A stretch of DNA of 43,460 nucleotides from Chitinophagaceae bacterium (GTDB lineage Bacteria > Bacteroidota > Bacteroidia > Chitinophagales > Chitinophagaceae), in assembly GCA_947450165.1 (NCBI GenBank), contig CANFUJ010000005.1, positions 1-43,460 on the forward strand. The letters are read 5' to 3'. The position numbers and the translations under genes are program-made. Under the pieces are notes generated by a model. That model saw only the letters and a program-made list of their open reading frames with translations. It made no database searches and was not told the origin of the DNA. Within the stretch, counting starts at the first letter, position 1; each line of letters opens with the position of its first letter. Of this stretch, positions 22,183 through 37,274 are shown one piece after another.

Positions 22183-22218
22183 TTTGTAAAAAGGTTACAA
22201 ACCCATTTAATAAATTCA
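22183..22218 (+). promoter_or_regulatory. 19-bp operator 1 with -7 box
   Basis: TTTGTAAAAAGGTTACAAA at 22183-22201; the -7 position at 22211-22218 reads TAAATTCA (weak). It drives the two small membrane proteins at 22261 and 22505. Confidence 0.6.
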
Positions 22219-22260
22219 ATTGTCGAATACTTTTATTTTTCACCTTTAAATTTAAAAGCG

Positions 22261-22482
22261 ATGTATATCAGAAATTTAGTTAAATACAGAAGAATCGTAA
22301 CCATCTTAGTAGGTTTAATTGTCATTAACATCATTACGCGATTTGTTATTGATATTAATTTCAACGACAACTTTTCCTTGATCAGTTATTTATTGGTGAG
22401 TATCATTTGGGTAGATTTCGTTAGGGTTATGACTGATGAAATTGTTCAGTATGTAGACGATCAAATTCGAAATGAATATTAA
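22261..22482 (+). CDS. small two-helix membrane protein, copy A
   Basis: A 73-residue protein from the ATG at 22261, 43 bases after the predicted -7 box; the longer frame from 22150 begins upstream of the promoter and is rejected. Two membrane segments: IVTILVGLIVINIITRFV and FSLISYLLVSIIWVDFV, then a charged tail. It shares RF...DN...LI.Y.L..I.W.DFVRV with the protein encoded at 22505, so the two are tandem paralogues. It is controlled by operator 1. The function is unknown; the small size and co-regulation with DNA-processing genes suggest a stress-induced membrane factor. Confidence 0.6.
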   Translation: MYIRNLVKYRRIVTILVGLIVINIITRFVIDINFNDNFSLISYLLVSIIWVDFVRVMTDEIVQYVDDQIRNEY

Positions 22483-22504
22483 GTTTTTAAAAATCTTATT
22501 TATT

Positions 22505-22708
22505 ATGAAAAAGTTCATACAAAGCAGAATGCTATTTATGTTTGGCGGTATGATTTACCTCAACATATTTTTCAGATTTTTGAAAGCCAATACTCATGAT
22601 GATAACTGGCTGATGATTTATTATATTTTATTGAATATCCTTTGGATAGACTTTGTACGGGTGAGTGCTAAGAAAGTGATTAAGGAAGTTATGGAAGAAA
22701 CCAAATAA
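22505..22708 (+). CDS. small two-helix membrane protein, copy B
   Basis: A 67-residue protein starting MKKFIQSRMLFMFGGMIYL; the ATG at 22505 is chosen because it aligns with copy A and avoids overlap. Membrane segments are LFMFGGMIYLNIFFRFL and WLMIYYILLNILWIDFV, followed by the basic tail AKKVIKEVMEETK. A paralogue of the protein at 22261, 22 bases downstream of it in the same transcript. A hairpin terminator follows directly. Confidence 0.6.
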   Translation: MKKFIQSRMLFMFGGMIYLNIFFRFLKANTHDDNWLMIYYILLNILWIDFVRVSAKKVIKEVMEETK

Positions 22709-22712
22709 AATC

Positions 22713-22755
22713 CCTGGCTTGGAAAATATTGCCAAGCCAGGAAAACTTTTTATTT
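22713..22755. terminator. bidirectional hairpin terminator
   Basis: Perfect 10-bp arms CCTGGCTTGG (22713-22722) and CCAAGCCAGG (22732-22741) with a 9-base loop. T-rich ends occur on both strands (CTTTTTATTT on plus, GGATTTTATTT on minus). It separates the convergent genes at 22505 and 22750. Confidence 0.85.
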
Positions 22756-23136
22756 AGCATTCAACATAACATAAACAAAAGCCTCTTCAAAACGTACAAC
22801 CCTATTGTCTAGTGTATGTTTTTCTAAAATAAGCGAACATCTATTTCTTAATTCCGAATCCAAAGGAAGATATTCAAACCTAGGTTTATCTTCCCCTTTG
22901 TACTTAATTTTATCAAACCAATACCGCATTACAAATTCGGTTCTTCTTTTGGAAGCCTCAATGGCAAACTCCTCATTAATGTCGTAAGACATAATCAAAT
23001 CAATTTTTTTTGGAACTTTTTTCGTTTCCTTTTCTTTTGAATTTACATTTCCAATTTCTTTGTTTTTTACTTTAGTTGCTTTTTTTACTTCAATTGATGT
23101 TGCATTTTCAAATGCATTTGTTTTCATTTTTACCAT
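22750..23136 (-). CDS. hypothetical basic protein
   Basis: A 128-residue protein. The first 45 residues are very rich in lysine and low in complexity (EVKKATKVKNKEIGNVNSKE). The C-terminal part looks folded: IDLIMSYDINEEFAIEASKR, FVMRYWFDKIKY and LRNRCSLILEKHTLDNRVV. No family is recognised. A positively charged tail would suit DNA or RNA binding, but this is inference. It lies 235 bases downstream of the perfect 19-bp palindrome at 23388 in the right orientation, so it may belong to the same regulon through a long leader. Confidence 0.5.
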   Translation of the reverse strand: MVKMKTNAFENATSIEVKKATKVKNKEIGNVNSKEKETKKVPKKIDLIMSYDINEEFAIEASKRRTEFVMRYWFDKIKYKGEDKPRFEYLPLDSELRNRCSLILEKHTLDNRVVRFEEAFVYVMLNAK

Positions 23137-23231
23137 AGTTTAAATTTTTTAATTTTTAAATAATTAATAAATAAATCACCTTAAAAAACAGATGTACAAT
23201 ACCAATAAGTCAAAGAACTAATTGCTATATC

Positions 23232-23251
23232 AATACCTATATATCGGTATT
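23232..23251. repeat. 20-bp near-palindrome
   Basis: AATACCTATATATCGGTATT matches its own reverse complement at 18 of 20 positions. It lies in the 350-base non-coding stretch 23137-23486 and may be an operator of a second regulator. Confidence 0.35.
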
Positions 23252-23318
23252 AATTTCAGAAGCGGCACTTGAAAACATACTTCTCCTGATACAACTTTTT
23301 TAGTTGTTTAAACAATAA

Positions 23319-23408
23319 ATGATTAATGAATGGGAATTAGAAGACGAGGTTGAGATTGAAATTCATGAAACGAATATAGAGATGCTGATTGTAAAGTATT
23401 TACAATGA
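23319..23408 (+). CDS. possible 29-residue peptide or gene remnant
   Basis: ATG at 23319 to TGA at 23406-23408, rich in glutamate (MINEWELEDEVEIEI). The 19-bp palindrome at 23388 overlaps its end. It may be a remnant of a lost gene of the regulon rather than a functional peptide. Confidence 0.2.
   Translation: MINEWELEDEVEIEIHETNIEMLIVKYLQ
23371..23406 (-). promoter_or_regulatory. perfect 19-bp operator 2, orientation uncertain
   Basis: ATTGTAAAGTATTTACAAT (23388-23406), a perfect 8-3-8 palindrome. With the spacing of the other sites, the minus strand has TATATTCG as -7 box (23378-23371). On the plus strand TAAATTTA (23414-23421) is 2 bases too close. Confidence 0.5.
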
Positions 23409-23486
23409 AGAAATAAATTTAGAAATTATGACTTTAGATTCTGATTGAATTTATAAAGATTTAAATACCTTATAATTCTAAAGGCA

Positions 23487-23846
23487 TTATTTGTAATGGC
23501 TTATTAAATCCCTTAGTTCTTTTTCAGAAATATTTTCTATTTCTGACTTGTCAAATATGGTTAATAGGTAAACTATAGTTTCATTTTCTGAAACTTTTTC
23601 TGATTTAATTAAAAGGTTGGATTCCACTAAAGTTATAACCCTAGCACCGCCACTTTTTCCTTTTTGTTTTGAGGAAATTCTAAGTCTTATCTTATAAGCG
23701 TTGTCTCCTAATGCAATACCTATATGTGGATTTTGAAACAACTCCTTTTCCAACCTTAATAGATCACTTTTTAGTGAATTATATTTCTTGATGAGGGGTT
23801 TTGCTGACTTTATAAAATTTGTTGTAACACTAACTGTGACCTTCAT
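23487..23846 (-). CDS. RelE/ParE-family toxin
   Basis: A 119-residue RelE-superfamily toxin: N-terminal strand KVTVSVTTNFIKSAKPLIKKY, the helical pair SLKSDLLRLEKELFQN, then the core strands NAYKIRLRISSKQKGKSGGARVITL and IVYLLTIFDKSE. The closing helix NISEKELRDLI is typical of this Bacteroidota group. The conserved basic positions (R in IRLR, K in SKQKGKSGG, R in ARV) suit an mRNA-cleaving or gyrase-inhibiting toxin. The antitoxin gene upstream overlaps it by 17 bases. Confidence 0.8.
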   Translation of the reverse strand: MKVTVSVTTNFIKSAKPLIKKYNSLKSDLLRLEKELFQNPHIGIALGDNAYKIRLRISSKQKGKSGGARVITLVESNLLIKSEKVSENETIVYLLTIFDKSEIENISEKELRDLISHYK

Positions 23847-24054
23847 TTAAAAAGTCTTTTAAGGTTTGTAGTTTCTTGCCCGTCTTTTTGGCTGTTTTTA
23901 CTTCCTGTAAAGCTTGCTTAATGCCAGTTAGTATTTCAATTTTATTTTGAAGTTTAATATAGTCTTCATTAATTTTTGTCCAAGCTTTGATAGGAATCAA
24001 AACAGATGTTTTTTGCCCCTTGTCATCTATCATATATTTTACAGGAATAGCCAT
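23830..24054 (-). CDS. antitoxin of the RelE-type pair
   Basis: A 74-residue protein: IPVKYMIDDKGQKTSVLIPIKAW at the N-terminus is a Phd-like strand pattern, followed by a helical region (IEILTGIKQALQEVKTAKK) and the lysine-rich tail that would wrap the toxin. Its end overlaps the toxin start by 17 bases. No 19-bp operator is found in front of this pair, so it appears independent of the surrounding regulon. Confidence 0.75.
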   Translation of the reverse strand: MAIPVKYMIDDKGQKTSVLIPIKAWTKINEDYIKLQNKIEILTGIKQALQEVKTAKKTGKKLQTLKDFLNEGHS

Positions 24055-24177
24055 GATGATTTTTTTGTAAAATTATTAATTTTTATTTGAAGATTAATAA
24101 AATCTAAATTTAATTAAAAATCAATTAAGAGAAAATTTCAGTTGAAAAAATAAAATCTCAATTTATACTCATTTTCT

Positions 24178-24579
24178 TCAATTATTAAACAACTCAAACA
24201 TCTCCCTATAAAAAAAATAGTAATTGGGATATGTTGTAAAAAACAATTGATTTGATAATGTACCAAACATTTGACTTGAAATATAATTATAAATCAAAGT
24301 CGCCTTTTCATTGGATAACGGATTATTTTCAATGTCAGTAATATATAAACCATCTTCGTAAAATGCCAAATCAATAAGGGATTTTTCATCGAGAAAAAAA
24401 GCATCCATTAGCTTCTCTGGTGGATCAATAACAAAGTATTCCGTTTTATATTTCATTATCAAAACCAAACTCTTAAAGAAGGCTTTCTTATAAAGACCGA
24501 GCTGCATGATACCATCATTGTCTATCAATAAATTACATAGTGGGGCCACTGCCTCATAATTTTTGAATGTATTTTTCAT
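24178..24579 (-). CDS. hypothetical protein coupled to the ADP-ribosylglycohydrolase
   Basis: A 133-residue cytoplasmic protein with mixed helices and strands (FKSLVLIMKYKTEYFVIDPPE, IDLAFYEDGLYITDIENN) and an aromatic-rich end (TYPNYYFFYREMFELF). No family is recognised. Its start overlaps the end of the ADP-ribosylglycohydrolase gene by 26 bases, so translation is coupled. A partner or accessory of that enzyme is likely by context only. Confidence 0.55.
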   Translation of the reverse strand: MKNTFKNYEAVAPLCNLLIDNDGIMQLGLYKKAFFKSLVLIMKYKTEYFVIDPPEKLMDAFFLDEKSLIDLAFYEDGLYITDIENNPLSNEKATLIYNYISSQMFGTLSNQLFFTTYPNYYFFYREMFELFNN

Positions 24580-25501
24580 TGAGATTGATTTTATTTAAAA
24601 GATTATTAATTAGATGTTGACCAGCAATTTTTTCGCACCAATTACTAGGAATATTATCATACCCATAATACAGTCCAGCCAAACCACCTGTTATTGCTGC
24701 AATTGTATCGGTATCTCCACCTAAATTAACAGCCTTCAACACTGCATCTTTATAATTATCGGTGTTTAAAAAACACCAAATAGAAGCTTCCAAAGTACTC
24801 AATACATATCCTGTAGATTTGATTTCAGATTCGGGTAAAGCAGCGAAATCAGCTTTGAATAAAAGTTTAAACCATTCCCATTCCGCTTCATGGTCATCAT
24901 CACTATCTGTAATACGCCACCCATATTTTAAATAAGCAGCTCCGTCTTTAACCGCTTCAAATTTATCTTTGCCTTCAAGCAAAGCCCGCATCATTTTCAC
25001 ATAAAACATACAGCAGTAAGAACAAATGCTATTGCGGTGTGTAATCCGATTTTCCATTGTCATATTAAAAATCGATTTTTTTATATCGTCTACAAAAGCA
25101 TAAGGCAAAGATCTCATCAGGCTTCCATTACCCGAAGATGATTCATCTGCACCACCTGCTAATGCTGGCTTTACACCAACCATCACTTTTTGTAAAGCAC
25201 GACTGGTTGTTATCCCAATATCAAATAACTCGCCGTGAGGTGTCATGTAATCATCACGATACCATTTTACAAACAACTCGGAAAGCGATTGAATGTCTCC
25301 ATTATTAATGATATTTTCCAAAACACATAAAAGCATGGATGTATCATCACTCCATGTCCCGGGTGGTTGATTATAAGTGCCGTAACCAACCATATCAACT
25401 GCAGGATTTTCTTTCATCATGTTGCGCGTGGAAAATTCATAGGGTACGCCAAGCGCATCACCAACAATAAAACCCCAAAGGGCATCTTTTATGTTTTTCA
25501 T
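24554..25501 (-). CDS. ADP-ribosylglycohydrolase (DraG/ARH family)
   Basis: A 315-residue enzyme with all family motifs: GFIVGDALGVPYEF near residue 11, GTWSDDTSM near 48 (the aspartates bind the two metal ions), SGNGSLMRSLP near 127 and NLGGDTDTIAAITGGLAGLYYG near 260. It removes ADP-ribose from proteins or, in some branches, from other targets. The protein seems intact and full length. It lies 94 bases downstream of the DnaE-fingers-like gene on the same strand and may be part of that operator-controlled transcript. A possible ADP-ribosyltransferase-like gene lies at 35182 under the same operator type. Confidence 0.92.
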   Translation of the reverse strand: MKNIKDALWGFIVGDALGVPYEFSTRNMMKENPAVDMVGYGTYNQPPGTWSDDTSMLLCVLENIINNGDIQSLSELFVKWYRDDYMTPHGELFDIGITTSRALQKVMVGVKPALAGGADESSSGNGSLMRSLPYAFVDDIKKSIFNMTMENRITHRNSICSYCCMFYVKMMRALLEGKDKFEAVKDGAAYLKYGWRITDSDDDHEAEWEWFKLLFKADFAALPESEIKSTGYVLSTLEASIWCFLNTDNYKDAVLKAVNLGGDTDTIAAITGGLAGLYYGYDNIPSNWCEKIAGQHLINNLLNKINLNEKYIQKL

Positions 25502-25549
25502 TATTTTTTTATTTAAAATTCAAAAGTAAAAAGTCAAAAATGTTGAATG

Positions 25550-25611
25550 CTTTTTACTTTTCACTTTTTAATTTTCACTTTTTACTTTTTACTTTTTACT
25601 TTTTACTTTTA
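25550..25611. repeat. 7-bp tandem repeat (TTTTTAC)n
   Basis: About eight imperfect to perfect copies of TTTTTAC in the gap between the genes at 25596 and 25501, running into the stop codon of the former. The unit is not a multiple of three. Copy number could vary by slippage. Confidence 0.7.
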
Positions 25612-26237
25612 TTCAAATACTTCCAAAATAAATTAGCGCCTTTAAAATTGGCATTCCACACAAAATGATTTTCTTCGACCGTTCTTTCTAAAACTAAATC
25701 ATAAAAAGAAAACCCATCAGAGATTTTGATTTGTTTAACATACTCAATTGCTTCTGGCTTTTTCTTATTCCAATCTTTTCTTAGGGTAACAATATCATAA
25801 TCTGAAGAGGATGGCAATTTTGCATAAATCTGTTCAAATTGATGCGCATATAAAATGTAGCCATAAGTTGGTTTCAAGATATCATCCAGTAGAGGTAACG
25901 TTTTAAATGCTTTTGAATTGTTGATTAAATCAATTGGATTACATTTTGAAATGGTGCGATAAAACGTAAGTGCAAATAATATAGAATCGAAATTCAATTC
26001 TGGCAAATGTGATAACAGTTCTTTTAACGGAGGCAATAGCGAAACCCTTGACGATAATGATTCCCCACCCTTTGAATGAAGTAACACAAAGGGCTTAGGC
26101 AAATCGATACTTATCAAAAATTCATAAGAAAAATCAACACTCACTTCATTACTTAACGCATCAGTTTCTGAATTGCTTTTTTCAAGTTTGATTATTTTTT
26201 GAGTTAATGGAAGATCAATAATCTGATTTTTATTCAT
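25596..26237 (-). CDS. stand-alone DnaE fingers-region-like protein
   Basis: A 213-residue protein; I choose the ATG at 26237 because the predicted -7 box overlaps the alternative TTG at 26258. Compared from memory with E. coli DNA polymerase III alpha (DnaE), [21 protein letters not shown] corresponds to [42 protein letters not shown] corresponds to [30 protein letters not shown] corresponds to FEDMIALVALFRP, and the end FYDLV...[10 protein letters not shown] to the IFDLV...YQTLWLKAH segment. The order is preserved along the whole length. The palm with the catalytic aspartates is absent, so it cannot polymerise. It may bind DNA or mimic or poison the polymerase. It is controlled by operator 3. 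Confidence 0.7.
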   Translation of the reverse strand: [213 protein letters not shown]

Positions 26238-26255
26238 TGATTGAATTATTTTCCA

Positions 26256-26291
26256 CAATGTTAAAAACAGACATTGTACTCTATTTACAAA
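26256..26291 (-). promoter_or_regulatory. 19-bp operator 3 with -7 box
   Basis: Minus strand TTTGTAAATAGAGTACAAT (26291-26273), then 9 bases, then TAACATTG (26263-26256) as -7 box. It drives the DnaE-like gene at 26237 and perhaps the ADP-ribosylglycohydrolase. Confidence 0.7.
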
Positions 26292-26317
26292 TACTTTTTT
26301 TTGTTATTTTTTTTCTA

Positions 26318-26353
26318 ATTGTAAAAAGATTACAATCATATTTTCTAGGTTTG
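26318..26353 (+). promoter_or_regulatory. 19-bp operator 4 with -7 box
   Basis: ATTGTAAAAAGATTACAAT (26318-26336), then 9 bases, then TAGGTTTG (26346-26353), a perfect -7 box. It is identical in all 19 bases to operator 10 at 33230. It drives the small protein at 26455. Confidence 0.8.
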
Positions 26354-26454
26354 ATTTCAAATACATTATCCACCTTTAATATTATCAATATGAATTAAAT
26401 CATTGCATTTCAAAACCCAGTTCAATCGATTTTTTAACCATTTAATAAAACAAC

Positions 26455-26640
26455 ATGAATAATATAATATCAAGCAATTTGCTTTCTAAATTTTTGGGAA
26501 TGACAGTAATAAATGAACTCTTCTTTTTATTTATCCGATTCAAAGGAATCGATACAATAGCATTTACAACCTATATTAGTTTGATATTTGCATGGTGTTT
26601 TCTTGTAGAGTATAAATATAGGCAATTGGAAAATTCATGA
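26455..26640 (+). CDS. small membrane protein under operator 4
   Basis: A 61-residue protein with two hydrophobic segments (FLGMTVINELFFLFI and TIAFTTYISLIFAWCFLV) and a short charged tail (EYKYRQLENS). It resembles the two-helix proteins at 22261 and 22505 in size and layout, but not clearly in sequence. It lies about 100 bases after a strong, regulated -7 box and has no neighbour in its transcript. Its coding nature is supported mainly by that promoter. The function is unknown. Confidence 0.5.
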   Translation: MNNIISSNLLSKFLGMTVINELFFLFIRFKGIDTIAFTTYISLIFAWCFLVEYKYRQLENS

Positions 26641-26832
26641 GTAAATTTCTAATTGGGTATTGATTTTTTTCAAGGAGAAATGTAAGAGAAGAAACTTGAA
26701 AAATATTGAGTTTATTGCAAATGAGATTCAATATGCAATTAGAAAAAAACATTTTTACTTATTGGAAATTAATTTATCTGAATTCTAATCACCGATTATT
26801 ATACATTTTTGGTGATTTCGCTAAAAAATAGC

Positions 26833-29772
26833 CTATTTAATAGTAACCATCTCTTTACAATACACACATCCCTCATCTGCACATTTTCTATTAAATTTCA
26901 TCCCCTGAATTTGGTTCCAGATTTTCAATAACCATTCCTCATAAGCTGGGTTGGCTTCATAAGTGAATTCCTTCACTTTATTTTTATCCTCTTTTTCCTC
27001 AACATAATGAAATGAAAAATCAATTTTAAACTGATTGCCATAAACACCATGAATGAGATAATGATACATCATCCCCTGCCTCCAATAGCCACTTCCAGGT
27101 TCGGTGCTGCTTATAAAAACATCATTGTTGGGATAATATTTTCCGGATTTATAATCGATGATTTTTGCAGTATCTCCTAAAAATTCTAATCGATCCAAAA
27201 CACCGCTTAACCTCACACCAGTTTCTAAAGTATGCGATAAATATTTCTCTACTTCTTCAGGCGTTTTTAAAAATGGCTTTTCTTTTAAATAATTAATGAT
27301 TACAGATTTCGCAGCTTGTTTGTAACCAGTTTCATGTAAAGGATGAAATTGGTTTTTATATGATAAGAACACTCGATCTACCAATGATTGAATTCTTACT
27401 AAATCATACTGAATAGAAATATCTTTTGCAATCTCTTCCAGCACTTCATGTACCATACTTCCAAAACTCATCGCTTCATTGCCTTCATCCTGAATCTTAC
27501 AAATGTTGGCGAAGAAAAATTTGTTTTGACATTGAACCCAATTATATGTACTGCTTGTAGAAATGGCAAACTGCGCAATCTTATTTCGCAGAAGCTCCAT
27601 CAATGGTTCTGAAGTTTGTAATGCAACCAGATCATCTTCCAATGAAGGAAGCTCAATCAATGGCATGTCTAATGTTTGCACATTTTTCATTTCAAAAAAA
27701 GGCTTCAACAATTCAGAAGCTACAGAAGGAAATTTCAAGGTTTCATCTTTACAAAAACTGATGTATAATTTAAATTTCGATCTGGTCATTCCTACATAAA
27801 ATACACGTCTCAAATCTTCTAAATCATCTGAATCCTGTTTAATGATTTGATTCAACACCCTTGGCACGTTAATGCTACCTCTTGAGTCTCCAGTATCTTC
27901 CCAGTTTTTATTCTGGCAACCCTTGATAAAAACAACATCATATTCCAATCCTTTGCTTGAATGTATGGTAGATAATATTACACCTGATGAAATTTTGTCG
28001 GTTAATTTGTATTCAATTGGCAAATCGTAAATGTGGTGATAAAAAATCATGTTCGCCAAAGAGATTGGCGTATTCGAATTGGTAGTTGCTGAAAATTCTT
28101 TTACAAATTCATCCCATGAAAGATTCAATTGCACTGCAACATCCAGATTGGTGGTTGCCAACTTATGCAGACTAACTAAATATTCCGTTGTTAAGATTTG
28201 ATTGGCTTTCTGATGCAATGACAACAACTGACGAAATACATCGGACGCATTTTTATTTAATTCATCTTCTTGAACAGATTTTAACCAATCAAAATAATGT
28301 ATACTTTTATCTACATGTTGTTTATGATAAAGGGTTGTGTACAACAATGATTCAGTTAAACCCAACTGCATCATCAATTTGTGGAAATGTACAATGGCAG
28401 AATTGTTGTCTTTTTGATATAACCTTATAAACTGTAAAATACTATACAATCTTTTTCCAAAATCAGTTTGCAACAAATTGCCTTTGTTTTGATTTATTGA
28501 AAAAGGAATATTAAAATGATTGAGCCATTTTTTTATAACCGCCGCTTCTTTGTTCTTTCTGTATAAAACTGTAATGGACTTATCTTGAAGGCCTGCATCC
28601 ATTAATTTTTTAATTTCAGTCACAATATCAAACGCTTCCTGATCTTCATCTTTGAAAGACTTCACGACTGGATGATGGTTATCTTCAAAATCAGAAGCAG
28701 CTTGTAATGCAGCTTTTTTCAATTCATGCCTGTTGTTGTTATGGCTAATAACATGATGCGAACTATCTAAAATTGCTTGCGCGCTTCTATAATTTTTATC
28801 AAGCAGCAAAACTTGCATATCCGGACAAATCTCTCGAATCCAATTAAAATTGGCTGCATTAGCCCCTTGAAATTTATACACGCATTGATCATCATCTCCA
28901 ACGATAAACAAATTGGGTTGTTCTATTTCTCTAATCAAAACCTCCAACAAATCAAGTTGCTTTTTATTGGTATCCTGAAATTCATCAACCAAAATATATT
29001 GGTATTTCTCGCGATAATTTAAAAGCATGTTCTCATCTATCGAAAGAATATCAATAGCCTTATCTAGCAAATCATCATATTCCAATTTGTTTCTTTCTTT
29101 GATGATGTTGAGATACGCTTCATACATAGGTGCAACAGCTTGGGTGAATTCCTGAATTTGAATTTCAATTTTCCGGCCATCCACATTTAATTCTCCATTT
29201 TTCTTTAAATATATTTCAATGTAAGGCAGTAAGTTATTTATGGCATAATGCGAAGCATCTCTCAAATCGGAAACAGCGATTCCTTCTTTTTTAAAAAGTC
29301 CAAATAAAGATGCCATTGAAATCAGTTTTGATTTATTAGCTGGTTTCAAATCAAAATATTTTCCGGCAATAGCGGGATTGGAAAATAATTTCTCTAAAAT
29401 CATGAAACGTTGAGCATCTGTTATCAACTGCGATTTTTCGATGACAGTTTGATTGTTTTCATTGATGATTTTTTGTGCGAAAGAATGATAAGTATGTACT
29501 TCAATCTCCTCTCCTATATTACCTAATAAACTGACCAATCTTTTTTCCATAGACTCTACGCCTGCATTTGAAAAGGTAAGGCATAAAATATTGGAAGCTT
29601 GCATATCCGTTTCGGTTAGAATTTGTCCGATTCTCGTTGCCAACACTTGCGTCTTCCCAGTACCCGGCCCAGCGAGCACCATTACAGGTCCTTCGATGGT
29701 TTCAACAGCTTGCAATTGAGCAAGATTCAATTTGGTTTTGGCATTGTTGAATTGGAATTGGTGATCCGTCAT
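26833..29772 (-). CDS. UvrD/PcrA-type helicase fused to a PD-(D/E)XK nuclease
   Basis: A 979-residue enzyme. Superfamily 1 helicase motifs: AGPGTGKTQVLATRI (residues 34-48), ILVDEFQDTNKKQ, GDDDQCVYKFQGA, LDKNYRSAQAI, TIHSSKGLEYDVVFIKGC and RRVFYVGMTRSKFKLYI. The C-terminal 230 residues are a RecB/AddB-like nuclease: FGSMVHEVLEEIAKD, GVLDRLEF and IIDYKSGKYYPNN. A cysteine in WVQCQNKF before the domain and C-ADEG-C-VY-C at the very end match the four ligands of the iron-sulfur cluster in AddB-type nucleases. It should unwind and cut DNA ends. Operator 5 lies 16 bases upstream of its start region, so it is part of the regulon. Confidence 0.92.
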   Translation of the reverse strand: MTDHQFQFNNAKTKLNLAQLQAVETIEGPVMVLAGPGTGKTQVLATRIGQILTETDMQASNILCLTFSNAGVESMEKRLVSLLGNIGEEIEVHTYHSFAQKIINENNQTVIEKSQLITDAQRFMILEKLFSNPAIAGKYFDLKPANKSKLISMASLFGLFKKEGIAVSDLRDASHYAINNLLPYIEIYLKKNGELNVDGRKIEIQIQEFTQAVAPMYEAYLNIIKERNKLEYDDLLDKAIDILSIDENMLLNYREKYQYILVDEFQDTNKKQLDLLEVLIREIEQPNLFIVGDDDQCVYKFQGANAANFNWIREICPDMQVLLLDKNYRSAQAILDSSHHVISHNNNRHELKKAALQAASDFEDNHHPVVKSFKDEDQEAFDIVTEIKKLMDAGLQDKSITVLYRKNKEAAVIKKWLNHFNIPFSINQNKGNLLQTDFGKRLYSILQFIRLYQKDNNSAIVHFHKLMMQLGLTESLLYTTLYHKQHVDKSIHYFDWLKSVQEDELNKNASDVFRQLLSLHQKANQILTTEYLVSLHKLATTNLDVAVQLNLSWDEFVKEFSATTNSNTPISLANMIFYHHIYDLPIEYKLTDKISSGVILSTIHSSKGLEYDVVFIKGCQNKNWEDTGDSRGSINVPRVLNQIIKQDSDDLEDLRRVFYVGMTRSKFKLYISFCKDETLKFPSVASELLKPFFEMKNVQTLDMPLIELPSLEDDLVALQTSEPLMELLRNKIAQFAISTSSTYNWVQCQNKFFFANICKIQDEGNEAMSFGSMVHEVLEEIAKDISIQYDLVRIQSLVDRVFLSYKNQFHPLHETGYKQAAKSVIINYLKEKPFLKTPEEVEKYLSHTLETGVRLSGVLDRLEFLGDTAKIIDYKSGKYYPNNDVFISSTEPGSGYWRQGMMYHYLIHGVYGNQFKIDFSFHYVEEKEDKNKVKEFTYEANPAYEEWLLKIWNQIQGMKFNRKCADEGCVYCKEMVTIK

Positions 29773-31294: not shown

Positions 31295-31307
31295 TAAATT
31301 CAAATAT

Positions 31308-31577: not shown

Positions 31578-31603
31578 TTAACCTCAAACCTTTAACCTTT
31601 TAG

Positions 31604-31620: not shown

Positions 31621-32194
31621 AATTATAATTAATTTTACTTCTCCAATCTTTAAGCATATAGTCATACTTTATTACACCTTCTGGCACTCGTGCCACTAAA
31701 CTTGGAGATGCAAGGTTTGTTATATTTCGTACAACATTAATTTTATCAATTTCATTACTCCAATTTTTTAGTTTTGATCCTTTACCCCAAGTAGAAAAAA
31801 CTTGAACAGATGTATTATTATTTAATAACTCAATAATTTGTTGTGTATTGTATTCACGTTGAACTGAATTATTTATTATTTTACTATCACTATATCCATT
31901 TCCAATTATTCCACTTATCAAATTCTCTGGTGCATATACTGCAGAAATAATATCAACACAACCAATTCTATATTTTTTTAATTTTCCAATGAAATTTGTA
32001 AAATTGCTTTGAGTAAATACATCATCACAAAATATTTCAGAAATGAGATTCCAAAATTGATTTCTTGATCTTCCGTAATAATAATTTACTTTTTCTCCAC
32101 CAGATGGATTGAATGTACCTAAAAATAAATAATCAATTTCCCAAGTTGGGAAATAATAAGAACTGCCAATAAGTTGATGATTGATTTTTTTCAT
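31613..32194 (-). CDS. uracil-DNA glycosylase superfamily protein (HDG-like)
   Basis: A 193-residue protein. The first motif is LFLGTFNPSGGEKVNYYYGRSRNQFWNLI (about residues 24-52), close to the F-P-S...YYG-x-x-R-N-x-F-W pattern of family 6 (hypoxanthine-DNA glycosylase) members. The second is LASPSLVARVP (about 161-171), at the place of the second DNA-binding motif. The middle part (YRIGCVDIISAVYAPENLISGII) matches the usual helical region. Such enzymes remove deaminated bases. It has no 19-bp operator, but its place inside the region supports a DNA-repair role. Confidence 0.65.
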   Translation of the reverse strand: MKKINHQLIGSSYYFPTWEIDYLFLGTFNPSGGEKVNYYYGRSRNQFWNLISEIFCDDVFTQSNFTNFIGKLKKYRIGCVDIISAVYAPENLISGIIGNGYSDSKIINNSVQREYNTQQIIELLNNNTSVQVFSTWGKGSKLKNWSNEIDKINVVRNITNLASPSLVARVPEGVIKYDYMLKDWRSKINYNCP

Positions 32195-32354
32195 GTTTGC
32201 TGATTTGATTTTTTAAAATATTTTGAACTCCTTTTTATTAATATACAAAAAATATTTTTCCGATTAATTAATTATTTAATTTTTTCAAAATAAAAACATA
32301 AACAAAAATAAATGCCTTCATTGTAATTAACCTACAACAAACTTCCCCTTCCTC

Positions 32355-32390
32355 ATTGTAAAACATTTACAATTTCACCTTTTAAGTTTG
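32355..32390 (+). promoter_or_regulatory. perfect 19-bp operator 8 with -7 box
   Basis: ATTGTAAAACATTTACAAT (32355-32373) is a perfect 8-3-8 palindrome, then 9 bases, then TAAGTTTG (32383-32390), a perfect -7 box. It drives the membrane protein at 32413. Confidence 0.85.
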
Positions 32391-32412
32391 CACCAATCAA
32401 AACAAATAATTT

Positions 32413-32769
32413 ATGCTCCCCATTATTCTTTTTATTGTTGCATTAATTGGTGTCCTGTTTTTCCCTAATGTGATTTTAATACATGGAGGAATTGGCAGTG
32501 AATCCATAACAGTTAATACGGTTTGTGTTTGGTATTTTTTTATTGCCTTCCTGATTTTTGTATATAGACGAAGAGAAATTCCTTTTTATGGTAAATTATG
32601 GCAAATGATTTCATTGTTTTTTACAATACTGTTTGCCACATTACTCGCAGGCTACATCAAAGAAAAAGTAAAAAAGAAAGATTATAGCGCTGCATTTTTC
32701 GGATTGATGATACCCTTTCTTTGGTTCGTCAACAAAATAGAGAAATCAAAAAAGACTATCGAGAAATAA
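32413..32769 (+). CDS. membrane protein under operator 8
   Basis: A 118-residue protein with four hydrophobic segments: the start MLPIILFIVALIGVLFF, then VCVWYFFIAFLIFVY, ISLFFTILFATLLAG and FFGLMIPFLWFV. A basic stretch (YIKEKVKKKDY) lies between the third and fourth. The centre is similar to the smaller protein at 29906. The ATG is 23 bases after a perfect -7 box, so a short leader. A likely membrane effector of the regulon; nothing more can be said. Confidence 0.65.
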   Translation: MLPIILFIVALIGVLFFPNVILIHGGIGSESITVNTVCVWYFFIAFLIFVYRRREIPFYGKLWQMISLFFTILFATLLAGYIKEKVKKKDYSAAFFGLMIPFLWFVNKIEKSKKTIEK

Positions 32770-32813
32770 AATAAAATCCCCCTTAACAAAACTTTACAAT
32801 CCTCCTCCACCAT

Positions 32814-32849
32814 TTTGTAAAAACATTACAATTTGATTTTGCATTTTTA
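32814..32849 (+). promoter_or_regulatory. 19-bp operator 9, weak -7 box
   Basis: TTTGTAAAAACATTACAAT (32814-32832); the -7 position at 32842-32849 reads CATTTTTA (weak). It drives the small secreted protein at 32917. Confidence 0.6.
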
Positions 32850-32916
32850 TCAAACCCAATAACTAATTAGATATAAACTATTACATCCATTTAATTAACC
32901 ACTTAATAAATTAAAA

Positions 32917-33213
32917 ATGAAAAAATCCATCTTAACCACATTAATCATTTCCACATCAACAATTTCCTTTGGACAAACAAAAAAAGAGTACTTCATTTAT
33001 GATATACCGCATTATGACTCAGTAGGAAATTTATATCAAGCAGCAAAGACATACGATCATTTTCCGACAGCAGCAGATTCAGCAGATTTTTTTTTATCAG
33101 CTAAAAATAAATTGAATGAAATAATGAATAATGAACAAGTAGAAAATGAGAAAAGAAAAAGCCCAATTAAAAAGGCTATTCCAGTAAAAAGAAATCCACA
33201 GAAAAAATTTTAA
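32917..33213 (+). CDS. small secreted protein under operator 9
   Basis: A 98-residue protein with a signal peptide MKKSILTTLIISTSTISFGQ cleaved after SFG-Q. The mature part of about 78 residues is hydrophilic (KKEYFIYDIPHYDSVGNLYQ, ADSADFFLSAKNKLNEIMNN) and ends in a very basic tail (RKSPIKKAIPVKRNPQKKF). It should be periplasmic or exported. No family is recognised. A secreted basic protein among DNA-processing genes is unusual and would fit an envelope function of the response. Confidence 0.55.
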   Translation: MKKSILTTLIISTSTISFGQTKKEYFIYDIPHYDSVGNLYQAAKTYDHFPTAADSADFFLSAKNKLNEIMNNEQVENEKRKSPIKKAIPVKRNPQKKF

Positions 33214-33229
33214 TCACATTTTTTTCTTA

Positions 33230-33265
33230 ATTGTAAAAAGATTACAATCACGGATTTTATGTTTG
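33230..33265 (+). promoter_or_regulatory. 19-bp operator 10 with -7 box
   Basis: ATTGTAAAAAGATTACAAT (33230-33248), identical to operator 4, then 9 bases, then TATGTTTG (33258-33265), a perfect -7 box. It drives the AAA ATPase at 33304. Confidence 0.85.
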
Positions 33266-33303
33266 TCCTCCACCATCATTATCCACTTATAAATCCTTTC
33301 ATT

Positions 33304-34983
33304 ATGTTCAACATTAATCAATCCAACAACAACGTTCTTGATGCTATTGAAGAAATTTATAACATCTCTAAAGACAGTTTGCTAACTTTTGATCTGAGCA
33401 AGGAAACAAAACTATCTACATGGCTGGATACCCTAAAATCGTTTTTTGAATGCGATGAGGAACAAGCTATTTTATTGGCCATAATGATTCAATCCAATTT
33501 AGAAAACAATAATGTTAGCATAAAAGAGATCATCGATCACGCCAATTTAAAAACCTCGGCTTCTATATATATCAATAATGTACTTGCACCGTTGGTGAAA
33601 CTGGAGTGGATTTCGCCTAAAAAAGATGTAAAATATTATCCACTCACCGAATACAACATCAGCAACAAACTGATACGTTCAGTTTTAACTGGAAAATTAG
33701 AAATGAACAATGAAGTTAAAATTGAAAACTCTTTTCAATTACTTGCTCATTTTCAAATGAGGTTGGGCGAAAAAAATCATAAACGCATTTCTTATGCTGA
33801 ATTCATTAAATGGACAAATGAATTATTGAATACACATGCATCAATCGAATTGTCTGATTTTATTTTAAAAATGAACATGCCTGAAGATGATGCCACTCAT
33901 TTTATGTATGCTTGTTCAAGATTTTATACCGGTCAGGAAGAATCGGATTACGATGACATCATTAGAGATTTAACCCCTCCTAAAGATGTTCAATACAAAC
34001 TGAGGAATTCTTTCAAATCGGGTTCCAATTTTTTAATCAAATCGGAGTTGATTAAAGAAACCGTTAGTGATGACATGTTCAAAAGCACATCTTATTCACT
34101 AACCGAAAAAGCCGTTCGTGCATTTGACAAAACAGCTGTTGTGAAAAACAAGTTGTCTGAAGGAATGATGAAACATTTGGAACCCAATGCCATTACTGAA
34201 AAGAAGTTAATTTTCGATAGTAACGAACAAAAGCTTGTAAACAAATTACATAACATGTTGAGTGTTGATAATTTTTCGCAACTAACCGAAAGATTAGAAA
34301 GTCAGGGTATGAAAAAAGGCATTAGCGTTTTATTGTATGGTTATCCTGGCACTGGTAAAACTGAAACCGTATTGCAATTGGGGAAAAATAGCAACCGATA
34401 TATCATGATGGCGGATGCTAGTAAAATTAGAAGCAAATGGGTGGGCGAAACCGAAAAAAACATGAAAGCATTGTTTGATGAATATAGAAAAGCGATGGTA
34501 GATTTTAAAGAAACCCCTATTTTATTATTTAATGAAGCTGACGCGATTTTAGGAAAAAGACATACGGTAACCGATCGTGGCGATCAGATGGAAAATGCCA
34601 TGCAGAATATTCTGTTGCAAGAGCTTGAAAACTTCGAAGGTATTTTTATTGCAACAACAAACTTGGTTGACAATTTAGATAAAGCATTTGACAGAAGATT
34701 TTTGTATAAAATTAGATTTGAAAAACCAGGTGCGCAAACGTTGATTCAAATTTGGAAATCGAAATTCCCAAAGATTAAAACGGGGATATTGAAAAACATC
34801 TGTGCTAAAATAAATTTAACGGGTGGGCAAATTGAAAACATCCGTAAAAAGATTGCCGTAGATTCTTTGCTGGATGATAAGTTGAAAATAAATGAAAACT
34901 ATTTGATGCAATTGGCTCAGCAAGAACTAATGTTGGATAAAAAGAATGAGAGAAATGCTATTGGATTTAATCAGGGAGTATAA
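33304..34983 (+). CDS. AAA+ ATPase with long N-terminal region
   Basis: 559 residues from the ATG at 33304; the frame opens further upstream but over the promoter. The first 300 residues are helical without a recognised domain (winged-helix-like segments such as SIYINNVLAPLVKLEWISPK may be present). The C-terminal AAA module has Walker A YGYPGTGKTET near residue 346 and KIRSKWVGETEKNMKALF. Walker B reads ILLFNEADAIL near 405, with asparagine for the usual aspartate, and sensor and arginine-finger segments are ATTNLVDNLDKAFDRRF. Such proteins remodel protein or nucleoprotein complexes. Under strong operator 10. Confidence 0.88.
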   Translation: MFNINQSNNNVLDAIEEIYNISKDSLLTFDLSKETKLSTWLDTLKSFFECDEEQAILLAIMIQSNLENNNVSIKEIIDHANLKTSASIYINNVLAPLVKLEWISPKKDVKYYPLTEYNISNKLIRSVLTGKLEMNNEVKIENSFQLLAHFQMRLGEKNHKRISYAEFIKWTNELLNTHASIELSDFILKMNMPEDDATHFMYACSRFYTGQEESDYDDIIRDLTPPKDVQYKLRNSFKSGSNFLIKSELIKETVSDDMFKSTSYSLTEKAVRAFDKTAVVKNKLSEGMMKHLEPNAITEKKLIFDSNEQKLVNKLHNMLSVDNFSQLTERLESQGMKKGISVLLYGYPGTGKTETVLQLGKNSNRYIMMADASKIRSKWVGETEKNMKALFDEYRKAMVDFKETPILLFNEADAILGKRHTVTDRGDQMENAMQNILLQELENFEGIFIATTNLVDNLDKAFDRRFLYKIRFEKPGAQTLIQIWKSKFPKIKTGILKNICAKINLTGGQIENIRKKIAVDSLLDDKLKINENYLMQLAQQELMLDKKNERNAIGFNQGV

Positions 34984-34999
34984 ATAAAATAAATACACT

Positions 35000-35023
35000 C
35001 GCCCATCGTTTAAACGGTGGGCG
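35000..35023 (+). terminator. 24-bp hairpin after the AAA ATPase gene
   Basis: CGCCCATCG-TTTAAA-CGGTGGGCG, a nearly perfect palindrome 17 bases after the stop. There is no T run, so it may be an mRNA-stabilising hairpin or a weak terminator. Confidence 0.5.
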
Positions 35024-35071
35024 ATATTAAAAATTGAAATAATTCCGAATATTTTTCATTACAATTTTTCA

Positions 35072-35107
35072 TTTGTAAATACAATACAATTACAAGTCAG
35101 ACATTTG
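35072..35107 (+). promoter_or_regulatory. 19-bp operator 11 with -7 box
   Basis: TTTGTAAATACAATACAAT (35072-35090), then 9 bases, then GACATTTG (35100-35107), a -7 box with one mismatch. It drives the genes at 35182 and 35799. Confidence 0.7.
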
Positions 35108-35181
35108 ATGTATAAAGACAAACCATGATAAAATAAACATACTCCAACTCGATTTCATTGTAAACTTCAAATGTACACATT

Positions 35182-35754
35182 ATGAAATCGATCCCTTATT
35201 GCCCCATTGCACGAAAAAAAAGACACACCATTAGTACACCAAAATCTGAATGGAAAAAATTCCGTCCAAATAGATACTTATATCATTTAAGTTATGGTGG
35301 CACCTTAAATGTTAATGAAGAAAATGTATTATTAAAGCGTTTAAGTATCGCTACCGAAGGGATTTGTGGTAAAGAAAAAGGCTTGGGTGGTGTTTGGGCA
35401 AACAACCAAATGAAAAGGGTAAATCATTTGTGGCCAATTTGTTTTGATAGCTGGGATTGTGGATCAAATGAAAACTATTTAAAGATGTTGTATAGATTTG
35501 ATGTTTGGCAAATTGATACAAAGCTGATTAACAATATCTGGTATTTAGATCCGAATTTGATGGATGGAAATGAAGGAAGTGGCGATGCTACGGATTATTT
35601 GTATTGCGAAAATACCATACATCCGCGTGCTTTAAAATTATTTACATTTACCATTAATGATTATAAGTTTTTGTTTGAAGATAAATTCAAAATCGAATTC
35701 AATTTAGACCCTGTAGAGAAAATAAATAATTTCATTAAAACAAAATGGTGGTAA
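35182..35754 (+). CDS. unknown protein, possibly ADP-ribosyltransferase-like
   Basis: A 190-residue cytoplasmic protein. RYLYHLSYGGTLNVNEENVLLKRL is reminiscent of the first strand and helix of ADP-ribosyltransferase-fold enzymes (histidine in Y-H-L-S). VWANNQMKRVNHLWP, FDVWQIDTKLINNIWYLDP and DYLYCENTIHPRALKLF follow the strand order of that fold, the last resembling the E-x-x-...-I-x-P segment. A clear catalytic glutamate cannot be named, so this is a weak assignment. It shares a transcript with the FtsK-like gene 44 bases downstream. A transferase here would match the ADP-ribosylglycohydrolase at 24554. Confidence 0.45.
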   Translation: MKSIPYCPIARKKRHTISTPKSEWKKFRPNRYLYHLSYGGTLNVNEENVLLKRLSIATEGICGKEKGLGGVWANNQMKRVNHLWPICFDSWDCGSNENYLKMLYRFDVWQIDTKLINNIWYLDPNLMDGNEGSGDATDYLYCENTIHPRALKLFTFTINDYKFLFEDKFKIEFNLDPVEKINNFIKTKWW

Positions 35755-35798
35755 TTTATATTTTAAAGAAATCAATTGGGATTATTTAATTTAGTAAA

Positions 35799-36509
35799 AT
35801 GCTCATTCCACTCATTATAGGAAAAAACAGTAGCGGCGAAAACCAGATGATTGATTTAGCACAATCTACTTTGTTGATGATTTCATATTGCGAAGAGGTG
35901 CAGTTAAAGAGTATTGTTACTCAACTAACCAATTTAGATTACCCTTTTAAACAATCTGATTATTATATTGCTTCAAGCAGAAAATGTGAATACTGGAATA
36001 TTGATTTACAACAAGCCATACATTATTATAAAGACGATCCAAACAAAGGAAATATCAACAAAAAATCGAAATTGCTAAAGCTTATAAATGATGAAATTTC
36101 CAGAAGAGAAAAAATTTTAAAAAAGAATAAAGGAATAGATTTCAAAAGATATTTTTCTTTAAACACTTGGAAAGAAGAAAAACTATCTTACCAATTTTTT
36201 GTCATTGATGACATTTGGGATATCGTAATTTCCAAACCTAAAACAATTGGATTAAGTTTGATGCGTATCATATTATATGGAAGCGATGTGGGCATTCATA
36301 CCATATTTACCAGCAAATTGTCTTATATAAATTTACTAGAACAGTTAATCAATATCAATCCTTCCATTACTAAAGAGTTACAAAAAAAATATGGAGTGCC
36401 TGAACCCAAAAGAATCAATAGTATAGGCAACGAACTTTTATTTACTGCTGATAATGTTGTATTTCATAAAAAGGCAGGTTCAATGGAGATGGTTAGGATG
36501 TATTTTTAA
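35799..36509 (+). CDS. FtsK-motor-like protein without a P-loop
   Basis: A 236-residue protein. Compared from memory with E. coli FtsK, IPLIIGKNSSGENQMIDLAQ corresponds to LPLTLGKDIAGEPVVADLAK. The next segment LLMISYCEEVQLKS corresponds to LLVAGTTGSGKS, so the Walker A is lost. LINDEISRREKILKKNKGID corresponds to CVNEMERRYKLMSALGVRN. YQFFVIDDIWDIV corresponds to YIVVLVDEFADLM, a Walker B with D for E, and SDVGIHTIFTSK to AAGIHLVLATQR. The whole motor is present in order but much shorter and unable to bind ATP normally. It may act on the host FtsK hexamer or on DNA. Confidence 0.7.
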   Translation: MLIPLIIGKNSSGENQMIDLAQSTLLMISYCEEVQLKSIVTQLTNLDYPFKQSDYYIASSRKCEYWNIDLQQAIHYYKDDPNKGNINKKSKLLKLINDEISRREKILKKNKGIDFKRYFSLNTWKEEKLSYQFFVIDDIWDIVISKPKTIGLSLMRIILYGSDVGIHTIFTSKLSYINLLEQLININPSITKELQKKYGVPEPKRINSIGNELLFTADNVVFHKKAGSMEMVRMYF

Positions 36510-36546
36510 TAAATTACTTTTCATGAGAAAGATATTGTTTAAATAA

Positions 36547-37170
36547 TTAACGCACCCTTTCCAAATCTGCAAAAACCCCTTCTTTAGATAAAAATGTATC
36601 AATTTCTTTGAGATCCTTTTTAAGAATAATCAACTGTCCTACATATTTTACATCATTTAATTTTTCAGTAAATATTTTTTTATTTTCAGCGATATAAATT
36701 GCAAAAGCAGGAACGGTTAAAGTATTGACATCGACCTCAAATTCTGAATTATCCACATAAAAAGACTTGTAATGACTATCTAATAATGCTTCATTAATTA
36801 AATCAACATTTATTCTAGAAACATCTTTTGGCGAAACTGCAGTAAAGCCTGGATAAAATAAATTAAATTCTGGAGAAATCACAAAACCAATATTTACACG
36901 CTCCGTAATATTTTCAAGTTCATTTTTTTTCATTAGGATATAAAAATAGTCTGCGCTAACTTCATGATATTCTTTAAACAAAAGAACAACTTTATTATTT
37001 TGATAAACTTCTGGAAAACCAAACTCAAATAATGGGTTATAAATAACCCTCCAATCGATAATGTCCAAATCATCTTTTGGTGGATTATGCAAAAATGCTT
37101 CATATTGCTCATTGGCATCAGTGCATAATTGCAAACAATTTTCAATGGTGGGTTTTACTTCTTCTAACAT
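36547..37170 (-). CDS. hypothetical protein
   Basis: 207 residues from the ATG at 37170 (MLEEVKPTIENC), chosen because a TACATTTG -7 box lies 8 bases upstream, inside the longer frame. Mixed alpha/beta protein (VVLLFKEYHEVSADYFYIL, VNIGFVISPEFNLFYPGF, LTVPAFAIYIAENKKIF) with no recognised family, signal or membrane segment. It lacks the 19-bp operator and is transcribed against its neighbours. It may be independent of the regulon. Confidence 0.5.
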   Translation of the reverse strand: MLEEVKPTIENCLQLCTDANEQYEAFLHNPPKDDLDIIDWRVIYNPLFEFGFPEVYQNNKVVLLFKEYHEVSADYFYILMKKNELENITERVNIGFVISPEFNLFYPGFTAVSPKDVSRINVDLINEALLDSHYKSFYVDNSEFEVDVNTLTVPAFAIYIAENKKIFTEKLNDVKYVGQLIILKKDLKEIDTFLSKEGVFADLERVR

Positions 37171-37238
37171 AATTATGCAAATGTAAATGCCTTGTTTGTT
37201 ATAGAAGAATAATTGATTTTTTTTCAATAAAATCTGAA

Positions 37239-37274
37239 ATTGTAAATAGGTTCCAATCAGGACTTCTAAGTTTG
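37239..37274 (+). promoter_or_regulatory. 19-bp operator 12 with -7 box
   Basis: ATTGTAAATAGGTTCCAAT (37239-37257), then 9 bases, then TAAGTTTG (37267-37274), a perfect -7 box. It drives the RmuC-like gene at 37311. Confidence 0.75.

Follow-up and report, generated by a model that had tools for sequence, protein, structure and literature searches.

The island, its palindromes and its promoters

The DNA studied here is a stretch of 43,460 nt from a Chitinophagaceae bacterium, referred to below as the window, which corresponds to contig C5 of a 2.63-Mb draft genome and has a G+C content of 31.6%. It carries a gene island in which 13 palindromes of the TTGTAAA-N3-WTTACAA kind span positions 22184 to 37256, the bounds of the island as used here. 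Two genes for proteins with WYL and WCX domains, WYL1 and WYL2, lie among or next to these sites, together with genes for a helicase-nuclease, an AAA ATPase, an ADP-ribosylglycohydrolase, and a number of small proteins. Together with related sites linked to WYL genes in other genomes, the island palindrome points to an undescribed defense switch. Other genomes, contigs, and loci are identified below by G, C, and L numbers.

An earlier study describes the housekeeping promoter of Bacteroidota as TAnnTTTG at -7 with TTTG near -33 (PMC7366714). The -7 boxes were scored against TAnnTTTG, and their offset was counted from the end of the 17-bp palindrome core. Site coordinates refer to this inner 17-mer and begin one base after those of the 19-mers in the original prediction, which had named ten promoters, a further copy at 23388, and a degenerate copy at 30225; all twelve are present. 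In 12 of the 13 palindromes, a TAnnTTTG-like box lies exactly 10 nt beyond the core, and the constant distance claimed for the ten named promoters proved exact when counted from the 17-mer.

The boxes of these 12 sites comprise 5 perfect ones, 4 with one mismatch, and 3 with two. Perfect boxes had been recognized at 26319-26353 (+, TAGGTTTG), 32356-32390 (+, TAAGTTTG), 33231-33265 (+, TATGTTTG), and 37240-37274 (+, TAAGTTTG), the last behind an operator with one mismatch; a fifth, on the minus strand at 32303-32337 (operator 32321-32337, TATTTTTG), had been overlooked. Where four of the named promoters had been counted as having one mismatch, there are three: 26256-26290 (operator 26274-26290, -, TAACATTG), 29851-29885 (+, TAATTTAG), and 35073-35107 (+, GACATTTG). 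The fourth box of this class belongs to the copy at 23388, which had been called isolated: at 23371-23405 (operator 23389-23405, -), TATATTCG is found at 10 nt. Two mismatches occur in the boxes at 22184-22218 (+, TAAATTCA), 29788-29822 (operator 29806-29822, -, CATATTTA), and 32815-32849 (+, CATTTTTA). Sites 26274 and 26319 form a divergent pair, as do 29806 and 29851, each 45 bp apart. The thirteenth palindrome, a degenerate copy at 30226-30242 (+), has no -7 box and ends 2 bp ahead of the WYL1 start codon. Sites 26319 and 33231 are identical over all 19 bases, as had been observed.

When up to one mismatch to TTGTAAANNNNTTACAA was allowed, a count over both strands of the window gave 18 rows, at 12 places, where 0.75 rows would be expected; none of 100 shuffles reached 18, and the shuffle maximum was 5. 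The window was also scanned with a position weight matrix (PWM) of 39 sites, 10 of which come from the window itself. It singled out 12 palindromes, with 13 oriented matches above 22 bits (one palindrome in both orientations) and nothing else above 9 bits, while each of 20 Markov sequences gave 0 or 1 match above 9 bits. A further near-palindrome, which starts at 34235 and has 1 mismatch, falls within the AAA gene and has no box, and an exact TTGTA-N7-TACAA at 14476 lies outside the island, within the open reading frame (ORF) 13268-14515.

Genes of the island

WYL2 (331 aa) is encoded on the minus strand at 21083-22078, divergent from site 22184 (Pfam WYL 5.9e-08, WCX 5.6e-09), and WYL1 (349 aa) on the plus strand at 30245-31294 (WYL 3.8e-08, WCX 1.9e-09). 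Behind site 22184 lie genes for two small proteins, hydrophobic by eye (22261-22482 and 22472-22708, +); L070 encodes relatives of both behind the same site (identities of 55/72 and 59/67), and L065 and L073 encode a single one. A 128-aa protein of no known family (22750-23136, -), whose gene is separated by 235 nt from the site 23389 box, has relatives behind sites in L070 (99/128) and L065 (42/87). The ADP-ribosylglycohydrolase-family protein (24554-25501, -; Pfam 7.4e-73) is 45% identical to its counterpart in the G010 island, and is followed downstream by a 133-aa protein without a family match (24178-24579, -). A protein of about 213 aa (25596-26237, -), with relatives in L065 and L215, shows weak similarity to the finger domain of DNA polymerase III alpha (Pfam 2.7e-04); the DnaE-like label that it had been given is weak, at 20.7 bits against a Pfam cut-off of 22.

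Behind site 26319, a 61-aa protein (26455-26640, +) is 52/61 identical to its counterpart behind the same site in L064. The next gene encodes a UvrD-type helicase fused to a PD-(D/E)XK nuclease (26833-29772, -; Pfam UvrD 1.3e-56, PDDEXK_1 4.8e-18), and is followed by one for a 78-aa protein, hydrophobic by eye (29906-30142, +; 47/77 identical to island proteins of L065 and L073). Beyond WYL1 lie a weakly matching hypoxanthine/uracil DNA glycosylase-like protein (31613-32194, -; TIGR04274 1.1e-07, scoring 32 bits where the cut-off is 80), a 118-aa protein, hydrophobic by eye (32413-32769, +; identity of 57/117 to a protein behind a site in L063 and of 73/118 to one in L065), and a 98-aa protein that by eye seems to carry a signal peptide (32917-33213, +; L065 relative, 37/81). 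The AAA ATPase (33307-34983, +; Pfam AAA 2.2e-25) is nearest to models of the anti-phage protein IetA (PADLOC 2.6e-29), and is 418/549 identical to that of L065 and 330/552 to that of L215. Pfam thus confirmed the predicted helicase-nuclease and AAA ATPase. The right part of the island encodes a 190-aa protein without a family match (35182-35754, +), a 236-aa protein with weak EssC/FtsK-type similarity (35799-36509, +; NCBIfam 7.3e-05), and a 447-aa protein with coiled-coil-like matches only (37311-38654, +; 418/446 identical to its L064 counterpart). The FtsK-like label of the 236-aa protein comes from a single weak EssC match. The RmuC-like label of the 447-aa protein was dropped, as the family scans gave no RmuC match and a comparison with a true RmuC gave none either.

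Three further features were seen in the window. A RelE/RelB-like toxin-antitoxin pair (23487-24054, -), both members under Pfam cut-offs, lies within the island with no obvious operator. Immediately to the left of the island is an ORF that by eye looks like a TetR-type regulator (20119-20796, -), and the right contig end carries a large ORF that by eye resembles a repetitive surface protein (41525-43450, -).

A PADLOC scan of 10 proteins yielded single-protein matches only (to IetA-like AAA, GajB/RTasHel-like UvrD, and WYL models, and weakly to JetC/LmuB-type coiled-coil models), with no system-level rule applied. There was no sign of a phage or plasmid in searches with WYL1, the WYL profile, and the 236-aa and AAA proteins. 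Neither the 236-aa protein nor the WYL profile had a confirmed match among viral contigs, no close WYL1 relative was confirmed in the genome-contig and viral-contig collections, and the 236-aa protein matched no plasmid; the AAA protein found 50 phage records, of which none reached 80% query coverage.

A fixed register and an oriented center

The distance between palindrome and box was examined in 12 loci containing 41 exact palindromes in 82 orientations, which were not selected for boxes within a locus. Over the offsets covered, 0 to 30, all 15 perfect boxes fell at offset 10. Boxes with at most one mismatch numbered 32 at offset 10 and no more than 4 at any other; without the window, these numbers were 23 and at most 3. 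Some of the loci had been reached via the palindrome+box pattern (L069, L070, L073, L074, and G010, the genome of L044 excepted), so that the register evidence is unbiased only for those reached via a protein, namely L063-L065, L067, and L068.

The palindromes also have a direction. Their asymmetric center, AAWAGAT, points toward the -7 box in 38 of the 43 sites compared; in 3 the two orientations are equal, and in 2 it points the other way. Divergent sites are spaced 45 bp apart in six pairs, and 44, 42, and 35 bp apart in one pair each; one site in L065 has an additional convergent neighbor at 32 bp.

The region upstream of the boxes was inspected for a TTG at the spacing usual between -33 and -7 elements. 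At spacers of 17-23 nt from the -7 box, none of 39 promoters has one, and within this range the letters of the palindrome permit it at 17, 18, and 19 only. The TTG of the palindrome itself lies 24 nt from the box, and the palindrome occupies the position of the -33 element. As the register is exact and no separate -33 box is seen, activation, which had been suggested on these grounds, is the best reading.

Local in its genome, recurrent in related islands

Throughout the genome, the palindrome with a box of at most one mismatch gave 11 rows, while the reversed control gave 1. The island accounts for 10 of the 11, and these represent 9 palindromes, one counted in both orientations. The exact form TTGTA-N7-TACAA occurs 30 times, against 7 for the reversed pattern, and 11 of the 30 fall within 13 kb, at 22184-35089. 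Ten of the 19 copies outside this segment were examined, and nine of these lie within ORFs of at least 100 aa. On other contigs, this holds for eight of nine (one of the ORFs being cut by a contig end); the copy on C167, within a 65-aa ORF, is a weaker case. A general, genome-wide regulon of this organism is thus unsupported, and no copy was seen ahead of a housekeeping gene among the 10 examined. The local regulon of the original prediction was borne out.

Related islands were sought with a three-member alignment of the 236-aa protein, which found six loci, L063 to L068, in metagenome genomes (five labelled Chitinophagaceae, one Sphingobacteriia). L066 is the contig of G010, a genome of the window's own family that had already been reached via the motif. 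The palindrome is present in all six, with one mismatch in L063 and L067 and as exact copies in the other four. Whole-genome scans gave 48 motif rows in 9 of 10 genomes, against 5 control rows. Most sites lie on the island contigs: 9 of 9 in G488, 8 of 10 in G487 (the other 2 on a second contig), 3 of 4 in G490 (the fourth beside WYL1), and 3 of 6 in G010. A relative of the 236-aa protein is also encoded in G216, where neither the motif nor a WYL2 match was found, and G135 was rejected as a carrier, its four motif rows lying on four separate contigs. A further version of the island, with the same operator, is present in G082 and G159, which belong to another genus; it encodes an ADP-ribosylglycohydrolase, a polymerase-finger-like protein, an AAA ATPase (60% identical), a DUF2779-type protein, and WYL1. 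Across islands, the operator is constant while gene content varies, and related small proteins recur behind the sites. The combination of an exact TTGTA palindrome and a perfect box was found in 5 of 294 family genomes, including that of the window.

Two motif-bearing loci of G487 encode other proteins of note. L069 (C8), the second such locus of this genome, encodes an 1145-aa protein with matches to PLD, type III restriction helicase, DUF3427, and S24-like peptidase models combined in one chain (1265-4702, -). In L070 (C9), a NADAR-domain protein is encoded behind a weak site (13511-14166); together with the ADP-ribosylglycohydrolase of that island, this places two ADP-ribose enzymes with one operator type.

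Candidate regulators

Both WYL proteins consist of a WYL domain followed by a WCX domain, above the Pfam cut-offs, and they are 27% identical to each other. Neither has a Pfam helix-turn-helix match; the N-terminal stretch is alignable (alignment A2), and the profile match to PafB begins at position 46. Among 20 proteins scanned, no other regulator was recognized, and the regulator of the palindromes is most likely a WYL-WCX protein.

The original prediction had named the protein at 30245, WYL1. The family is probably right; within it, the protein at 21083-22078, WYL2, is at least as good a candidate and is the one that we prefer, and both might act together. Orthologs of WYL2 with the palindrome upstream are found in G487 (97% identity), G488 (78%), G490 (75%, with one internal stop), and G489 (43%), and another lies beside the motif in G179 (40%). 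In G281, the palindrome lies between a true RmuC gene and a WYL gene 35% identical to WYL2, with weak boxes. WYL1 orthologs (48-57%) are present in G488, G490, G159, and G082 (in pieces). WYL1 is the second candidate, and possibly also a target.

WYL1 might instead regulate the palindromes alone, with WYL2 controlling something else. Its gene lies inside the island, and in G488 and G490 the palindrome immediately precedes its start, as does a site with a one-mismatch match in G159; moreover, G159 and G082 carry WYL1 while their best WYL2 match is only 30% identical. We nevertheless consider this rather improbable, since G487 has 10 motif rows and a WYL2 ortholog but no WYL1 ortholog, the sites of G489, G179, and G281 adjoin the WYL2 type, and 18 of the 139 sites from a wider scan are upstream of a gene of the WYL2 family.

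The WYL profile matches PafBC (6sj9, 2.5e-16) and DriD (9pfq, 1.8e-14), while matches to entries named BrxR and CapW are weaker (8.7e-05 to 1.1e-03). This bears on a reading in which the palindrome is the operator of a BrxR/CapW-like WYL repressor, and the island stays silent until a signal removes the protein. Repressors are common among WYL regulators of defense systems, a site overlapping the -33 region is easily used for repression, and the degenerate site at 30226 covers the ribosome-binding region of WYL1. A repressor would, however, need neither one exact register at some 30 promoters nor an oriented center, and the entries named BrxR and CapW matched less well; this reading is unlikely.

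Related operators beside WYL genes in the family

Homologs of WYL2 at a threshold of 1e-30 are present in 97 of 284 family genomes. Some palindromes upstream of their genes share an N5 core: TTTGTAA-CCGAT-TTACAAA, GTTTGTAA-CCTAT-TTGCAAAC, ACTGCGCAA-TCTAT-TTGCGCAGT, and others. A stricter count required 8 of 9 paired arms; 14 of 82 upstream regions qualified, compared with 49 of 2000 control windows, and 4 of the 14 are in loci fetched by the motif. Two scans extended this. The GCGCAA form was found at at least 75 sites in 244 genomes, and 24 of the 75 listed lie 29-230 bp upstream of a WYL2 homolog. An oriented operator followed by AnnTTTG gave 139 sites in 284 genomes, against 48 reversed-control rows (hand count). 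Eighteen of the 139 lie 45-394 bp upstream of one of the 115 WYL2 homologs listed, and all 18 point away from it. By hand count, the two scans together place a related palindrome upstream of at least 32 of 115 distinct WYL genes.

These operators offer a further view of the register. For 42 GCGCAA sites, boxes with at most one mismatch cluster at offsets 9 (8 boxes), 10 (9 boxes), and 11 (7 boxes), and no other offset has more than 3. The fixed spacing could in principle reflect mere descent, one promoter having been copied repeatedly inside the island; the identity of sites 26319 and 33231 and the recurrence of orthologous promoters between islands fit such a history. Against it, the 10-nt spacers and the gene starts vary between sites, and GCGCAA-type operators of other genera hold a register of 9-11 nt before unrelated genes, which makes descent the least credible of the accounts weighed here.

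The shared N5 core, in some cases accompanied by the center AAWAGATT, also argues against a reader other than a WYL protein, such as a CRP/FNR-type or TetR-like regulator or an alternative sigma factor. The TTGTAA/TTACAA half-site is of a common kind, similar to the TTG...CAA of CRP/FNR, and the TetR-like ORF at 20119-20796 (by eye) lies directly left of the island. Yet only WYL1 and WYL2 were recognized as regulators among the proteins scanned, and half-site and presumed recognition helix appear by eye to co-vary; we think such a reader very unlikely.

About 30 of the 139 sites, picked as strong or clustered examples, were viewed in context. A few of these look like background, among them L228 and L229, which lie inside unrelated ORFs, and L217 and L219, which have no telling neighbor; many of the remaining sites are probably background too. 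Behind other related sites, Pfam and PADLOC recognized genes for RtcB and TROVE/Ro60 proteins (with RlaP and Band_7 in the same stretches) and for RmuC. A RecD-like helicase, RecC, and a RecB-type subunit follow the site in G281, whereas in G489 RecB and RecC lie beside, not behind, a locus of WYL2, motif, and FtsK-like gene; among 12 genomes, recD was found in these two only. A metallophosphatase and SMC-like pair lies behind a site in G487, type I restriction-modification (RM) genes occur in the same gene strings as related sites, and a reverse transcriptase, a BilD-like gene, and a DruH3 gene also lie behind such sites.

Three loci are of particular note. L227 (G083 C7) contains a Bil-like operon (2524-5638; Metal_CEHH, JAB, and E2_C-ThiF; BilD model 1.1e-21), divergent from a WYL gene, with operator CTCCGCAAATAGGTTGCGGTG and box TAAGTTTG. 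In L225 (G084 C11), a Druantia III DruH3-like gene (2603-5980) lies right behind the long palindrome ACGTGCAAATAGATTGCACGT, again divergent from a WYL gene. L213 (G041 C93) has three tandem operator+box units (2077-2256) at a spacing of 73-74 bp, upstream of one short gene and divergent from a WYL gene; a short ORF at 78-383 with a repeated NQPHPRKQGL is, by eye, perhaps a CRISPR-like or minisatellite array.

Proposed mechanism and significance

The observations comprise the sites, their register and locality, their conservation in related islands, and the neighboring WYL genes with related operators. From these we infer binding, activation, a ligand, and which WYL protein acts. We give a probability of roughly 70% to a model in which the island palindromes are bound by a WYL-WCX transcription activator, encoded in the island and acting in the manner of DriD of Caulobacter crescentus. 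We read them as activator sites over -33 because of the designs of DriD and PafBC and the far better profile match to these than to BrxR and CapW. In this model, a WYL dimer would occupy an inverted repeat of 17-23 bp covering the -33 region and hold the housekeeping RNA polymerase on promoters with a TAnnTTTG -7 box and no separate -33. Transcription would take its direction from the fixed 10-nt register and the oriented, asymmetric center; site pairs, most of them spaced by 45 bp, would act as two-way promoters, and the regulator gene would lie divergently beside one site. Single-stranded DNA (ssDNA) is the ligand of DriD and PafBC; by analogy, the inducer here may be ssDNA or damaged nucleic acid arising from phage attack or DNA breakage. 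Such a ligand would switch on the whole set together: helicase-nuclease, AAA ATPase, ADP-ribosylglycohydrolase, glycosylase-like protein, and small hydrophobic proteins.

Several points weigh against this model. A palindrome over the -33 region could also block the polymerase, so that repression is possible, and the choice of ligand is a guess by analogy. Two WYL paralogs compete for the role, with G487 lacking WYL1 and G159 and G082 lacking a close WYL2; in G010 and G486, which carry the motif at sites near contig ends, neither ortholog was found. The absence of a -33 element is partly forced, because the fixed letters of the palindrome exclude TTG except at three spacers. Three of the ten boxes first named carry two mismatches, and the loci reached via the pattern are skewed toward offset 10. 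Exact TTGTA palindromes with perfect boxes are rare in the family, most WYL2 homologs showed no clear upstream palindrome in these scans (14 of 82 had one), and about one third of the 139 looser sites is expected from the reversed control.

A broader proposal is tentative, and we put the odds somewhat against it: Chitinophagaceae, and perhaps Bacteroidota, may use a single WYL activator family and a single promoter code (a GYAAAWAGATTRC palindrome, about 10 nt, and AnnTTTG) as a common emergency switch for unrelated repair and anti-phage operons. Its targets would include RtcB/Ro60, RecBCD, RmuC, SbcCD-like proteins, type I RM, Druantia III, Bil, reverse transcriptases, and the island of the window. 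Islands would join this network by gaining an operator, and operator and regulator would drift jointly into dialects such as TTGTAA, TTGCAA, and GCGCAA.

How stored defense and repair genes are switched on is understood for few bacterial systems. In a phylum whose -33/-7 promoters are unusual, a sequence code of this kind predicts controlled promoters, their direction, and a neighboring regulator. With it, the trigger signal of such islands becomes directly testable in culturable Chitinophagaceae, and the genes behind the operator offer a route to new defense or repair genes.

Comparison with known systems

The regulon had been called previously undescribed, and no description was found in the literature searched, which consisted mostly of open-access papers. 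The same search found neither this operator, nor this island, nor WYL control of RtcB/Ro genes in Bacteroidota.

BrxR and CapW, WYL regulators of phage defense, are repressors with palindromic operators, and we know of no fixed register to a -7 box for them. They resemble the present proteins in adjoining defense genes, and differ in the weaker profile match given above.

DriD is a WYL activator of an SOS-independent DNA-damage response (PMC12340889, preprint). Its homodimer binds ATACGAC-N7-GTCGTAT, centered on -35 at a constant distance from -10 in aligned targets; these have poor -35 elements, binding is asymmetric, and driD is divergent from the activated operon (PMC12340889). The present system is similar in WYL profile group, in a palindrome over -35/-33 at one distance from -10/-7, and in the divergence of WYL2 from the promoter at 22184, as in all 18 relatives' upstream sites. 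It differs from DriD in operator sequence, in its Bacteroidota -33/-7 promoters, in having many promoters in one accessory island, and in its two WYL paralogs.

PafBC of mycobacteria acts by sigma adaptation, which replaces -35 recognition (PMC11804915), and is a heterodimer with a non-palindromic site (PMC6789036). WYL-WCX architecture and two paralogous WYL proteins are shared with it; unlike PafBC, the site here is palindromic, and genomes with only one paralog still keep the motif. SiwR of Mycobacterium smegmatis, a WYL activator, uses a 19-bp imperfect palindrome between -35 and -10 beside its own gene (PMC10693628). The palindromic site adjacent to the regulator gene is a common trait, whereas one adjacent operon is described for SiwR and the island here has many promoters. 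RtcR, which controls Rtc RNA-repair operons, is sigma-54-dependent and has a CARF domain (PMC4012209, PMC7790460). RtcB and Ro-type genes likewise occur among the WYL-linked relatives, but here a WYL gene adjoins several of them. The kind of protein and the principle are already known; the operator code, the multi-promoter island, and the phylum are, to us, apparently new.

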